In this document: piece by piece, positions 6,959 through 11,895 of the stretch
Position numbering within the stretch: the stretch's first letter is position 1
How the letters are laid out: the number at the start of each line of letters is the position of its first letter
Source of the DNA: Thermovibrio sp.
Lineage (GTDB): Bacteria; Aquificota; Aquificia; Desulfurobacteriales; Desulfurobacteriaceae
DNA length: 34,936 nt
Reading direction: 5' to 3'
Assembly (NCBI GenBank): GCA_015490195.1
Contig: WFYG01000021.1
Location: forward strand, 1 to 34,936
Translations under genes and position numbers: made by a program
Notes under the pieces: generated by a model
Database searches by the model: none
The model's input: only the letters and a program-made list of their open reading frames with translations
Told to the model about the DNA's origin: nothing

Positions 6959-8005
6959 ATGTCCCTTAAAGACCATCCCATTCTGAAGGCTGCAAGAGGA
7001 GAGAAGACCGAGTACACTCCCATCTGGATAATGAGGCAGGCGGGAAGATACTCTGCTAAGTACAGGGAGATAAGAGCTAAAGCCGGTTCTTTTATGGATC
7101 TGTGCAGGAACCCTGAACTTGCGGCAGAGGTGACCCTTATTCCCATAGAAGAGATTGGAGTTGACGCTGCAATTCTCTTCTCAGACATCCTTGTTCCCGT
7201 TGAAAAGATGGGAATAAACATCTCCTTTGTTGAGGGAAAAGGGCCAGTTCTTGAGCCAAAGGTTGAGAGTTTGGAAGATGTTGAGAGGTTAAAGGTTCCA
7301 GAGCCTGAAAAGGATTTGCCATACGTTCTTGAGACGATTCAGATAATAAAGAAGAGGCTTACAGACAGGCCTTTAATCGGTTTTTCGGGAGCTCCCTTCA
7401 CACTGGCAAGCTACATGTTGGAAGGGGGGAGCTCCAAAAACTACATAGCCGCAAAATCAACGATGTGGAACAGGCCACAGCTCTGGGATGCTCTCATGTC
7501 AAAACTCACATATACCGTAATTGAATACCTTTCTGCCCAGATAAGAGCGGGAGTTGACCTTATTCAAATTTTTGACTCCTGGATGGGAGTTCTTGCAAAA
7601 GAGGACTATGAGAGGTTCGTCTTCCCGTACACGGAAAAGATTGTAAATGAGTTAAAGAAACGCCATCCAGAAACTCCTATAATCCACTTCGGCGTAAACG
7701 CTGCCCATCTTTTAGAGGTAAACAACAGGCTCGCTGTTGACGTTATAGGCCTTGACTGGAAAACAGAGATACCTTTTGCCCTTGAAAGAGTTGATAAGTC
7801 TATTCAGGGGAACCTTGATCCTGTAGCCCTCTTTGCAGACGAGAATACTATTGAAGAGAAAGTAAGGAAGATATTGGAGGAGGGGATGAAGGCCAGGGGA
7901 CACATTTTTAACTTAGGGCACGGAATACTCCCGCCGACAGACCCGAAAAAGGCGAAATTCCTGGTTGACACAGTTCACAGGGTAAGCAGGGAGCTCAGAA
8001 AATGA
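6959..8005 (+). CDS. hemE: Uroporphyrinogen decarboxylase
   Basis: Converts uroporphyrinogen III to coproporphyrinogen III in the cytoplasm by removing four acetate carboxyls. The N-terminal signature PIWIMRQAGRY is diagnostic and carries the active-site Arg residues. FSDILVPVEKMG contributes the conserved Asp, and FSGAPFTLASYMLEGG and HFGVNAAHLL are further family blocks. Length (348) is normal. AAGGAGG precedes the ATG with ideal spacing. Its end overlaps the next gene by 4 bp (ATGA), indicating coupled translation. The presence of HemE indicates a route through coproporphyrinogen rather than purely through siroheme. Confidence 0.97.
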   Translation: MSLKDHPILKAARGEKTEYTPIWIMRQAGRYSAKYREIRAKAGSFMDLCRNPELAAEVTLIPIEEIGVDAAILFSDILVPVEKMGINISFVEGKGPVLEPKVESLEDVERLKVPEPEKDLPYVLETIQIIKKRLTDRPLIGFSGAPFTLASYMLEGGSSKNYIAAKSTMWNRPQLWDALMSKLTYTVIEYLSAQIRAGVDLIQIFDSWMGVLAKEDYERFVFPYTEKIVNELKKRHPETPIIHFGVNAAHLLEVNNRLAVDVIGLDWKTEIPFALERVDKSIQGNLDPVALFADENTIEEKVRKILEEGMKARGHIFNLGHGILPPTDPKKAKFLVDTVHRVSRELRK

Positions 8006-8874
8006 AGAAAAAAGCCTTTTTAGCTGCCGTTCTCTTTATTGTGGCGGTTGTTGCCGGTTATTTTGCCCTTGAAGCCTATGCAAACGTTAAGTTAAAAGAG
8101 AAGATAGACAGACGTTTTAAAAAGCTGCCCTATGCCACCTCTTACTCTTACTTCCACTACAACCTTGCTCGCAACGATCTTGAGTTTAAAGATTTTACTC
8201 TAAGCAGTAGCCTTTTCTCTCTTAAACTCTCACGGCTCTACATAGACCTTCCTGTTGAGTTCAGAAAGAAGGGCTTTCCTCCCTACCTGAAGGTGGAGGT
8301 GAGAGGAGGAGATGTAAAGATTAACCTCCCTCTTCTTGATGAGCTTCTTGGAGAATCTTCATTCAGATTTAATCTTGACGGCTGGTACAGGTTCAAAGGC
8401 AGTAAGTTAGATGCGTCCCTCTCTTTGAATGTAAGAAATGTTGCAGACTTTTACCTGGGAACTCTGATAGATAATCTCAGCTATCCAGTTGTTGAGCGTT
8501 TCTTTGAAGGTAGAACTACGGTAAGAGCTCTCGTAAATAGAGGAAGACTTGTAAAGTTCCACGTGGTCTTTAGGAATAGAGGAATTTACGGGCGATTTCT
8601 GAATTATGCTGCCCGTCAGGAGGGGATGACCCCCGAAAAGATAAAGAAAGAGCTCTTCTCTATGATAGAGAAGAACTTTCACAAAGACGACTTCCTCTAC
8701 AGGAGAGTAGGAGAAGCTTTAGAGGAGTTTATTAGAAGACCTACATGTCTGAAGCTGGAGGTTTTACCTCCTCAGCCTGTAAGTTTAAAAGCACTGAAAG
8801 AGCTCGTTGTCTCTAAGCCGAACATAAAAGCTGTTGTGGAAGAGTTGGGATTGAGGCTTACCGTTTGCCATTAG
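8002..8874 (+). CDS. Unknown N-terminally anchored envelope protein
   Basis: The N terminus MKKKAFLAAVLFIVAVVAGY is a signal anchor or uncleaved signal, so the rest probably faces the periplasm. The body alternates short beta-type segments with helices (for example YSYFHYNLARNDLEFKDFTL and LKVEVRGGDVKINLP), a style seen in AsmA/YdgA-like envelope proteins. I cannot assign it to a family. It overlaps hemE by 4 bp and is therefore co-translated with it. Its stop codon overlaps by 4 bp the stop of the convergent ferredoxin gene, so no terminator is present between the two. Confidence 0.72.
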   Translation: MKKKAFLAAVLFIVAVVAGYFALEAYANVKLKEKIDRRFKKLPYATSYSYFHYNLARNDLEFKDFTLSSSLFSLKLSRLYIDLPVEFRKKGFPPYLKVEVRGGDVKINLPLLDELLGESSFRFNLDGWYRFKGSKLDASLSLNVRNVADFYLGTLIDNLSYPVVERFFEGRTTVRALVNRGRLVKFHVVFRNRGIYGRFLNYAARQEGMTPEKIKKELFSMIEKNFHKDDFLYRRVGEALEEFIRRPTCLKLEVLPPQPVSLKALKELVVSKPNIKAVVEELGLRLTVCH

Positions 8875-9467
8875 CGGGAGCTCCTTCTAGCTCTAACCCT
8901 CCTCTTCATCTCTTCCAGAGGGATGGGTTTAGCCTCTATGCTCTTTGCAGGGCAAACGTTCCCGCAGTGGCCGCAACCTGAACATATCTCGGGAAATTCC
9001 GGAATAACCCTTCCGTTTTCGTCAATTCCTCTGGTTTCGCAGAGCTCCAAGCACTTCTCACAGTTCTGGCACCTGTTGTGGTTTATCTGCTGAAGGTAAG
9101 CTGGCGTGTAGAGTATGCCTCCCAGCGTAAGGTAGGCGTAGTTCCCGTTCTGGTCAGAGAGGAGTTCCTCCTCGTTTACTTCAATCTCCTCCGAACTGGA
9201 GGAGCAGTTGATGCCTCAGAGGAAGGCATCTTGCGGGCAGACTATCTTACAGAAACCGTCTCCTATGCAGAGTTCAAACTTTGTTATTACGGCTACTTTT
9301 CTATCTTCAAACTCTTTTAGCTCTATGCAGTTCTGAGGGCATATCTCAACGCACTCTCCGCAGCCGTTACACCTTGACGGGTCAATTCCTCCGGGGTATT
9401 GAGGAACGAATGGAGAACCATCCTGAGTTAAAATAACTTGCTTCTTTATTTTCTCTAACAGTTTCAT
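8871..9467 (-). CDS. Polyferredoxin with in-frame UGA, candidate selenoprotein
   Basis: The first 83 codons give a ferredoxin of the nif-associated FdxB style: VPQYPGGIDPSRCNGCGECV with C33, C36, C39, C43, then CIGDGFCKIVCP (C67, D70, C73, C77). UGA is codon 84 (9216-9218). The frame continues through GINC, an acidic linker, and two complete clusters, CQNCEKCLELC (C133-C143) and CSGCGHCGNVCP (C162-C172), to TAA at 8871. No ATG, GTG or TTG occurs between the UGA and the third cluster, so the second half has no start of its own. A hairpin follows the UGA at SECIS distance. I favour selenocysteine insertion; a recent nonsense mutation is the alternative. It lies 83 bp downstream of ntrC, suggesting electron transfer linked to nitrogen metabolism. 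AAGGTGG precedes the ATG. Confidence 0.7.
9186..9204 (-). promoter_or_regulatory. SECIS-like hairpin 3' of the ferredoxin UGA
   Basis: On the coding strand CTCCTCC pairs perfectly with GGAGGAG around the loop AGTTC. The stem begins 11 nt after the UGA and the apical loop 18 nt after it. As I recall, bacterial SECIS elements need an apical loop about 16-37 nt from UGA with a G in its first two bases; both hold here. A further CAA/TTG pairing can extend the stem across an internal loop. There is no obvious bulged U as in E. coli fdhF. Confidence 0.5.
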
Positions 9468-9495: not shown

Positions 9496-9524
9496 ATTTT
9501 ATACCAATACTAACTTTATTCCAA
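9496..9524 (-). promoter_or_regulatory. Sigma-70-type promoter of the ferredoxin gene
   Basis: TTGGAA (-35), 17-nt spacer and TAAAAT (-10) on the minus strand lie between the ntrC stop and the ferredoxin ATG, giving a leader of about 20-25 nt. No sigma-54 type GG-N10-GC element was recognised there. Confidence 0.45.
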
Positions 9525-9550
9525 GATACTGATGAAGGAATTGATTTCCG

Positions 9551-10912
9551 TCAATGAAGCTCTATCCCCAACTCCCTTATTTTCTTCCTTAAAGTGTTCC
9601 TGTGAATTCCCAGAACTCTTGCTGCCTTTACCTGGTTAAAGTTACACCTCTTTAAGACTTCTGATATAACGGCTCTCTCTGCCGCTTTAACTACTATGTC
9701 GTAGAGGTTGTTCTTCTCTTTCTGCTCAACGGAGAAGACTTTCAAAACGAACTCCCTTATTGTGCTTTCAAGGGACGGAGTTTCTTGCTGAACTTGTTTT
9801 TTCAGGTCTTCTGCCGTTATAAGGTTTGACGGTGAGAGAACCATGGCTCTCAGTATCATGTTCTCAAGCTCTCTCACGTTGCCGGGAAAGTGGTAGGAGA
9901 GGAGGAAGTCAACTGCGTCGGCCGAGAGCTCTTTGGGGGGAAGTTTGAACTCCTTTGAAAATCGTTTTATAAAGTGGTGCGCTAGTGGGACTATGTCCTC
10001 TTTCCTCTCTCTCAGAGGAGGAAGCTCTATCTTTACTATGTTGAGTCTAAAGTAGAGGTCTTCCCTGAAAGTTCCCTTTTTTACCTCTTCTTCAAGGTTC
10101 CTGTTTGTTGCCGCTATTACCCTAACATCAACCTTTTTACTCCTCTCACTTCCTATAGGACGAATCTCTTTTTCCTGCAGGACTCTGAGGAGTTTTGCCT
10201 GCAAAGGCAGGGGGAGCTCCCCTATCTCGTCAAGGAATATGGTTCCGCCGTTTGCCTGTTCAAAGAGCCCTTTCTTTGAGGAGACTGCTCCTGTGAATGC
10301 TCCCTTTTCATACCCAAAGAGCTCTGCTTCTAAGAGGTTTCCCGGCAAAGCTGCGCAGTTTACGGCAACAAAGGGTTTTTCTCTTCTGTCTGAGTAGTTA
10401 TGTATGGCTCTTGCAATAACTTCTTTTCCGCTGCCGCTTTCTCCGGTTATCAGAACCGTTATTGAGCTCTTAGCAACTTTTGCAACTGTTTTAAACACTT
10501 CCTGCATCATTTTGCTGCTTCCGACAATTCCCGACTCGGCTTCTTTCTCTACTTCTCTTTCCTCTCTCTTCGTGAGCAGTTTCTTAAGGACCTCGCTTAT
10601 CTCTTCAAACGAGAACGGTTTCGTTATGTAGTCGGCGGCTCCAAGCTCTATGGCTTTTACTGTGTAGTCCATAGTTCCGTAGGCCGTTAGAACTACAACG
10701 GGAATCTCTTTTACCTTCTCAAGGACTTCAAGTCCTCCCAGTTTCGGCATCTTCAGGTCTAAGAAGATGAGGTCAACAGGTTTCCTCTTCAGGAGCTGAA
10801 GAACTTCTCTTCCGTTTTCTGCCTCTAAAACTTCGTGTCCCTTTGAGGTGAGGAACTTTCTTAGAACCAGCCTTATGCTCTTTTCGTCGTCTGCAACCAG
10901 TATCCTTGCCAA
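9551..10912 (-). CDS. Sigma-54-dependent response regulator, NtrC family
   Basis: Three domains are complete. The receiver (1-115) has phospho-acceptor D52 in FLDLKMP and K98 in ITKPF. The AAA+ domain (about 128-365) has Walker A GESGSGKE (157-164), the sigma-54 contact loop GAFTGA (204-209) and Walker B GGTIFLDEIG. A C-terminal Fis-type helix-turn-helix reads NQVKAARVLGIHRNTLRKKI. Once phosphorylated it remodels sigma-54 polymerase from distant enhancers. It starts 2 bp after the kinase gene, so the pair forms one two-component system. Domain order fits NtrC, but other paralogues (AtoC, ZraR type) share it. The adjacent FdxB-like ferredoxin is the only hint of a nitrogen link. Confidence 0.92.
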   Translation of the reverse strand: MARILVADDEKSIRLVLRKFLTSKGHEVLEAENGREVLQLLKRKPVDLIFLDLKMPKLGGLEVLEKVKEIPVVVLTAYGTMDYTVKAIELGAADYITKPFSFEEISEVLKKLLTKREEREVEKEAESGIVGSSKMMQEVFKTVAKVAKSSITVLITGESGSGKEVIARAIHNYSDRREKPFVAVNCAALPGNLLEAELFGYEKGAFTGAVSSKKGLFEQANGGTIFLDEIGELPLPLQAKLLRVLQEKEIRPIGSERSKKVDVRVIAATNRNLEEEVKKGTFREDLYFRLNIVKIELPPLRERKEDIVPLAHHFIKRFSKEFKLPPKELSADAVDFLLSYHFPGNVRELENMILRAMVLSPSNLITAEDLKKQVQQETPSLESTIREFVLKVFSVEQKEKNNLYDIVVKAAERAVISEVLKRCNFNQVKAARVLGIHRNTLRKKIRELGIELH

Positions 10913-10914
10913 CT

Positions 10915-11895
10915 CTACCTCTTCATAGGTATCAGTAGCTTAATGGAGGTTCCTTTTCCGGGGGAGCTCTCCACCTTTACCTCTCCACCGTGGCCTTTAA
11001 TCACCTCTTTTACTATAAAGGCACCGAGCCCTGAGCCTCTCTCTTTTGTTGTGAAGAACGGGAGGCCGAACTTTCGGAGCTCCTCTTCCTCCATACCTCT
11101 GCCGGTGTCTGTAACCTTTATGAAGATAAACCCCGAAGGCCTTATTGCGTATCCCGTTTCAACTGTTATCTCCCTCTTTTCAGCCTCTTCTACAGCCTCT
11201 ATGGCGTTCTTTACAACGTTCAAAAAGGCCTGAGTCATTTTATCAACGTCAACGGGAACTTCCGGCAGCGATGGATCAAATAGGAAGCGAACCTTTATTC
11301 CCTTCTCCTTTACTTTTGCAGAGAAGAGGTTAAAAACCTGCTGGATTATCCGGTGGATGTTCTCATTTCTGAAAGAGAGCTTAGAGAAATCAAAGCTCCT
11401 CGTTATGTCCTTTAGCAGTCTTTCTATCCTCTCAACTTCGTCAACTATGACCTGTGCAAGTTCCTCATCGTAGCTTTTCAGCTCCTTAAAGAGCTTTGCT
11501 GCTCCTTTTATTCCGCTTAGCGGATTCTTTATCTCGTGGGAAAGTCCTTTAAGGAAAAGTGTAATGTCTTCCTCAAAGGGGGAAATGCTGCAGGATTCAA
11601 TGAGAACTACGACTCCAACTTTTTTTGAGGGTGTAAAGAGAGGGGAGACGTGGAAGATGAACTCCCCTTTTCTAAACCCTCTTATCTCTATGGTTTCGTT
11701 AAATGCCTTTTTAATAAGAAGGAGAAGCTCTTCAATCTTAAGCACTTCTGAGATGGGTTTTCCTTTCAGGAACTTGAAAGACCTGTTTGAGAGGGATTCA
11801 AACTTCTGATTAACCCTCTCTATTTTTCCTTCGCTGTCGGTTATTACTGCGGGGAACGGAAGTGAGAACAGGAGGTCTTCAAACTCGGCATTCAT
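10915..11895 (-). CDS. Soluble PAS histidine kinase, NtrB-like
   Basis: An N-terminal PAS domain (about 1-105, starting LLFSLPFPAVITDSEGKIER) is followed by the H-box LKGLSHEIKNPLSGIKGAAK with H120, the N-box FLNVVKNAIEAVE, the G1 box VTDTGRGM and the G2 box GSGLGAFIVKEVI. The sequence SHEIKNPLSGIKGAA is the NtrB form of the H-box. There is no membrane segment, which also fits NtrB. The gene is immediately upstream of the NtrC-type regulator and should phosphorylate it. The ATG is preceded by AGGGAAAG. A perfect 12-bp palindrome GGGGAGCTCCCC lies in the short gap before it and ends at the upstream gene's stop. Confidence 0.9.
   Translation of the reverse strand: MNAEFEDLLFSLPFPAVITDSEGKIERVNQKFESLSNRSFKFLKGKPISEVLKIEELLLLIKKAFNETIEIRGFRKGEFIFHVSPLFTPSKKVGVVVLIESCSISPFEEDITLFLKGLSHEIKNPLSGIKGAAKLFKELKSYDEELAQVIVDEVERIERLLKDITRSFDFSKLSFRNENIHRIIQQVFNLFSAKVKEKGIKVRFLFDPSLPEVPVDVDKMTQAFLNVVKNAIEAVEEAEKREITVETGYAIRPSGFIFIKVTDTGRGMEEEELRKFGLPFFTTKERGSGLGAFIVKEVIKGHGGEVKVESSPGKGTSIKLLIPMKR

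Follow-up and report, generated by a model that had tools for sequence, protein, structure and literature searches.

The gene at positions 8871–9467 (minus strand) of the window, meaning the whole 34,936-nucleotide stretch of DNA analysed here, most probably encodes a genuine selenoprotein of a new family, with selenocysteine (Sec) inserted at UGA codon 84. Based on comparative sequence evidence, we assign a probability of about 0.93 to the selenoprotein claim itself, a value that does not extend to the role in CO dehydrogenase metabolism considered below. The reading frame starts with ATG at 9467, ends with TAA at 8873–8871 and comprises 198 codons plus the stop; its sole in-frame TGA is codon 84 (9216–9218, minus strand), followed by 114 sense codons, exactly as the first-pass annotation had counted. 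The proposal of Sec at position 84, made there from the letters alone, is now supported by a UGA in 19 of 19 copies, by the sel genes in the genome and by a hairpin downstream. A gene finder treating UGA as a stop lists the same gene as a truncated ferredoxin of 83 residues.

Homology searches found the gene in a single bacterial family only. A whole-genome search of 60 relatives followed by a profile search of 136 genomes of the phylum found it in 18 genomes, solely within the window's own family (Desulfurobacteriaceae by record titles). In all 19 aligned copies, which represent six genera, UGA occupies exactly codon 84, and no other codon was seen there. A pattern scan of 84,980 species genomes yielded nine full-length relatives, all from Desulfurobacteriaceae-type records and all with TGA at this codon. 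Neither a Cys form nor any other sense form of codon 84 was found in the 136 phylum genomes, in the pattern scan of the 84,980 species genomes, or on plasmids and viral contigs, the latter two being devoid of relatives altogether. The first-pass annotation had suggested aligning homologues at this codon, a plain sense codon other than Cys in close relatives pointing to a nonsense mutation; every relative carries UGA, and no Cys form, a common though not indispensable counterpart of a Sec protein, turned up for comparison. Assembly error is excluded, because some of the carrier genomes are near-closed, one being a single contig. Outside the family, a weak match in Bdellovibrio was discarded as lying antisense to a RecG-like gene, and weak matches in Enterococcus are short and partial. 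Within the family, the gene was not found in the four genomes of one genus, here termed g7; in the two of these that were read, leuC follows the kinase–regulator gene pair in place of the ferredoxin gene.

The sequence following the UGA is maintained as well as that preceding it. The median pairwise dN/dS is 0.110 for the part preceding the UGA and 0.096 for the part following it, each from 43 pairs below saturation, with dS near 2, so that synonymous sites are themselves near saturation; by this measure purifying selection is equally strong on either side. Moreover, 18 of the 19 copies have no further stop inside the conserved reading frame. One metagenome-assembled genome contains a second, diverged copy of the ferredoxin gene (L050/L017, on G017:C129), 84% identical in nucleotides to the first and with an extra TGA in frame at codon 47, a position held by Cys in every other copy. 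This codon could encode a second Sec in place of the invariant Cys, signal that the copy is decaying, or stem from an assembly error.

Downstream of the UGA there is a SECIS-like hairpin (9186–9204, minus strand), in which a 7-bp stem (9204–9198 with 9192–9186) closes a 5-nt loop (9197–9193, AGUUC, with G at 9196 and U at 9195). The hairpin, CUCCUCC-AGUUC-GGAGGAG, begins 11 nt past the UGA and folds with −12.7 kcal/mol (z = −3.4), confirming the first-pass observation of a hairpin at the right distance. Codons 89, 90, 92, 93 and 91 take ranks 1, 2, 3, 5 and 6 of 192 columns for excess codon identity, that is, identity across relatives beyond what amino acid and codon usage predict. At codon 92 the amino acid varies (S, L, P, M) and the third base is G wherever the codon is present; in one relative (L033) this column holds GAG owing to a one-codon shift. 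In that copy and two others (L042 and L043) the hairpin is displaced by one codon and still present, and the L033 stem carries a C-G to G-C swap. When 11 sequences were recoded at random with synonymous codons, a hairpin at least as good and with a GU loop arose in 0.7–5.6% of the trials of each sequence; the sequences are related, so that the individual values are not simply multipliable. In the stem, 88.9% of cells are paired, as against 44–60% in slid versions. Covariation is limited, with three of seven pairs changing on both sides, and a slide of +1 performs similarly on the covariation measures but not on cells paired.

The loop also ties the ferredoxin gene to established Sec sites. The motif CC-RGUY-GG is common to the ferredoxin genes, the selD genes of five genomes and fdhA of genome G007, and the UGAs of these selD and fdhA genes mark textbook Sec sites. 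The selD gene of the window's genome likewise contains a UGA (RASGUGAK) and has the hairpin loop GGUC, and fdhA of G007 (ARLUHAP) has the loop GGUCU. In most ferredoxin copies the loop reads [AG]GU[UC], closed by CC/GG; in L037 and L050, which are close to each other, it reads AGGA. Counting from the U of the UGA, the G of the loop occupies position 23, the same as in fdhA, a position presumably also shared with the fdhF element of E. coli (G23, U24). Formate dehydrogenase alpha and SelD of this family thus have the same hairpin loop motif and spacing, while the proteins themselves are unrelated to the ferredoxin. Three other positions in the genome with the same UGA-to-loop pattern were set aside, as none has a long frame on both sides, and a search of Rfam gave no match.

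The host is equipped to decode the UGA. SelA, SelB, a UGA-containing SelD and tRNA-Sec are all encoded in the window's genome, with tRNA-Sec on contig C8 and SelD on C43; the four genes that the first-pass annotation had advised looking for are therefore present together, including the selB and selC whose absence it regarded as a sign of a nonsense mutation. That annotation had cited the Sec machinery of Aquifex, which applies insofar as the machinery is there; the host itself belongs to Desulfurobacteriaceae and is not Aquifex. SelA and SelB score above the cut-offs in the window's genome and nearly the whole family, g7 included, the weaker cases being fragmented genomes. Since g7 has the machinery without the ferredoxin gene, this gene is not needed for the use of Sec. 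Genus g7 has SelA, SelB and a UGA-containing SelD, yet neither the Sec-ferredoxin nor, in the two genomes checked, a formate dehydrogenase alpha match. Among four gene-carrying genomes checked, three, namely the window's genome and two relatives, have formate dehydrogenase-like genes without UGA; genome G007 has the UGA-containing FdhA.

Other readings of the UGA were weighed against these data. That it is a true stop created by a nonsense mutation, leaving a dead second half, draws on nothing beyond the UGA itself and is refuted by conservation: the same UGA persists in 19 copies from six genera, dN/dS stays at about 0.10 behind it and the frame lacks other stops in all but one copy, which leaves this reading a negligible probability. 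Translation of the second half from a start of its own, as a separate gene, might be suggested by the TTG, ATG or GTG codons found 8–11 codons past the UGA in several relatives, mostly within or just beyond the hairpin. No such start exists in seven copies, the window's included, and an eighth has just one, 48 codons on; moreover, two separate genes would need neither UGA rather than UAA or UAG nor a hairpin with the selD/fdhA loop, and we consider this arrangement very improbable. The first-pass annotation had argued from the lack of any in-frame ATG, GTG or TTG between the UGA and Cys133, which is correct for the window's gene but fails as a general rule in view of those relatives; the argument is also unnecessary, because the UGA and the hairpin are conserved. 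A near-cognate or suppressor tRNA reading the UGA as Trp or Cys is about equally improbable: sequence leaves room for recoding without Sec, but UGA is an ordinary stop elsewhere, ending 13 of the 34 genes in the window, and the genome has the complete Sec machinery and the gene a hairpin of the Sec type.

The gene encodes a predicted polyferredoxin with four 4Fe-4S sites, one of which has Asp in place of Cys. The first module (residues 12–78; 9234–9434, minus strand), delineated by Pfam Fer4 and related domains, invariant residues and the duplication alignment, contains the motifs C33xxC36xxC39xxxC43P and C67xxD70xxC73xxxC77P. The second (residues 112–173; 8949–9134, minus strand), defined by invariant residues and its alignment to the first, contains C133xxC136xxC139xxxC143 and C162xxC165xxC168xxxC172P. 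The two modules align with a score of 102, against 29 ± 5.7 (maximum 52) for shuffled sequences; it follows that a ferredoxin-III-like module has been duplicated in tandem, and the linker between the two copies holds Sec84-Gly-Ile-Asn-Cys88 (9204–9218, minus strand). Sec84 and Cys88 of this UxxxC motif are invariant in all copies. The account of the two halves in the first-pass annotation, which credited the part after the UGA with two further intact motifs, needed correction: the part before the UGA is a complete two-cluster domain, with Asp70 replacing one Cys (CxxDGxC), and the part after it is a second complete domain. An AlphaFold model of the protein (mean pLDDT 69, poor for module 2) was of limited quality and was kept out of the mechanism; a PDB fold search with it retrieved generic ferredoxin-type proteins only.

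These features enable us to propose a putative mode of action. SelB and tRNA-Sec would decode UGA codon 84 as Sec, directed by the hairpin 11 nt downstream. Sec84 and Cys88 would then form a UxxxC pair just past the second cluster motif of module 1, a pair that may be redox-active or bind a metal next to the clusters and for which a selenenylsulfide, a soft-metal site and a cluster ligand are all candidate roles. The protein would pass low-potential electrons between its clusters. Alternatively, the UGA might act as a selenium-controlled switch, in which termination yields a complete two-cluster ferredoxin of 83 residues and insertion of Sec the four-cluster protein of 198; the two products would both be functional, in a ratio set by the selenium supply. 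The UGA does sit at the boundary of two complete modules, and by its Pfam score module 1 counts as a full dicluster ferredoxin; Cys88 and the sequence beyond it are conserved like the rest, which shows solely that the long form matters, and we hold such a switch to be unlikely. Less likely still is an extended version, in which the selenium supply selects between the two forms and Sec84 of the long form completes or sits on the Asp70 cluster site, making a natural Sec-associated Fe-S centre that carries electrons for CO dehydrogenase.

Comparison with known families indicated that the Sec-polyferredoxin is related in kind to several of them and distinct from each. Each module resembles ferredoxin III (FdxB, TIGR02936) in its "QDG-P-PQ-ID-CxxCxxC" start and dicluster core, and TIGR02936 is the best NCBIfam match, hitting all 17 relatives scanned. 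The protein differs from FdxB in its two tandem modules, in a motif with Asp70, in a linker that carries Sec84 and Cys88, in a score below the family cut-off (67.2 against 80.55 bits) and in the lack of nif genes. Hence a nif-specific ferredoxin III with a Sec insertion, serving nitrogenase, is an extremely improbable identity: nifH was not found in any of the 11 gene-carrying genomes tested and occurs only in G019, which lacks the ferredoxin gene, and the nif role was rejected. The earlier description as "FdxB-like" holds as a resemblance and not as a function.

The mercury methylation ferredoxin HgcB (NF040864), some members of which are selenoproteins with the motif GVGU (PMC13188914), is likewise a dicluster ferredoxin, in which a Cys or Sec shortly behind the second cluster motif is conserved. 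It matches with 42.1 bits against a cut-off of 99, and the profile match ends at residue 89; from this end point Cys88 appears to correspond to the HgcB Cys/Sec position, whereas Sec84 lies four residues before it. The present protein also has 198 residues and two dicluster modules, compared with 93 positions in the HgcB model. No hgcA was found beside the ferredoxin gene at loci long enough to show the neighbours, which are the kinase, the regulator, a convergent gene and hemE. NF005503, an Fe-S cluster domain-containing selenoprotein with a UxxC motif (PMC13188914), likewise combines Sec with ferredoxin-type cluster domains, but has UxxC where the present family has UxxxC, and it does not appear in the top 25 of the 63 NCBIfam matches. 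Among the matches listed for NCBIfam (June 2026), no selenoprotein model exceeds its cut-off; the 119 families and subfamilies in Table 1 of the 2026 inventory of prokaryotic selenoproteins include no such ferredoxin (PMC13188914), and the searched literature makes no mention of a Sec-polyferredoxin. As HgcB and NF005503 are already examples of ferredoxin-like selenoproteins, the family is new but its kind is known, and no new principle is involved.

The gene has a constant genomic setting. It adjoins a sigma-54-dependent response regulator of the NtrC class (9551–10912, minus strand), whose partner is a soluble PAS-type histidine kinase (10915–11895, minus strand), and the order kinase, regulator, ferredoxin is kept at every locus long enough to show it. 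In G010 the kinase gene occurs twice, 7.2 kb apart (C2:208890–209858 and 216113–217081) and equally similar to the query, which suggests a local duplication. On the other side, a convergent gene for a 290-residue protein (8002–8874) shares 4 bases with the end of the ferredoxin gene; this neighbour is fast-evolving (23–64% identity) and fixed in position.

Upstream of the ferredoxin gene there is a sigma-70-like promoter, TTGGAA-17-TAAAAT (9496–9524, minus strand), assigned by consensus match only, and, farther upstream than this promoter, an FNR/CRP-type palindrome, TTGACGGAAATCAA (9541–9554, no strand assigned), which is a candidate operator. Of the 18 relatives whose upstream DNA is intact, 10 have its pattern, TTGAY-N4-RTCAA, at this place and four others show a weaker form of it; in several genomes the pattern is missing or degenerate here. 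In 18 of 20 genomes of Desulfurobacteriaceae, g7 included, the same pattern precedes the gene for anaerobic CO dehydrogenase. In the window's genome it occurs at five places, equal to the count for a reversed control pattern; it is therefore its conservation, and not its number, that makes the palindrome notable. A third copy in this genome precedes a malate dehydrogenase-like gene, named from its sequence. At the four loci read, a YgbA-type gene and a CRP/FNR-family regulator adjoin the CO dehydrogenase gene (families tested on the window's genome only), and the regulator's recognition helix, ETVSR, is one that we take to resemble that of FNR. Co-occurrence with CO dehydrogenase was dropped as a test, the enzyme being present in all 22 genomes of the family and so not tracking the ferredoxin; because g7 too has it, the link rests on the shared operator. 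As this FNR-like operator is common to the two genes in many members, we tentatively propose that the ferredoxin may be co-regulated with CO dehydrogenase and may serve as a low-potential electron carrier for it or for linked CO2-fixing metabolism of the rTCA type, which we regard as its likeliest role but rate as possible rather than probable.

In summary, this study adds a selenoprotein family missing from the 2026 catalogue (PMC13188914), one that gene finders reading UGA as a stop will continue to list as a truncated ferredoxin of 83 residues. The family is unusual in that all members found carry Sec and none has a Cys form, in that Sec would lie next to the Fe-S clusters of a soluble polyferredoxin, and in its host, a deep-branching, thermophilic and chemolithoautotrophic deep-sea lineage of hydrothermal vents. 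The proposed regulatory link to CO dehydrogenase offers a direct experimental entry. Because the formate dehydrogenase-like genes in three of the four carrier genomes checked have no UGA, the Sec-ferredoxin may be a main reason for this lineage to keep selenocysteine.
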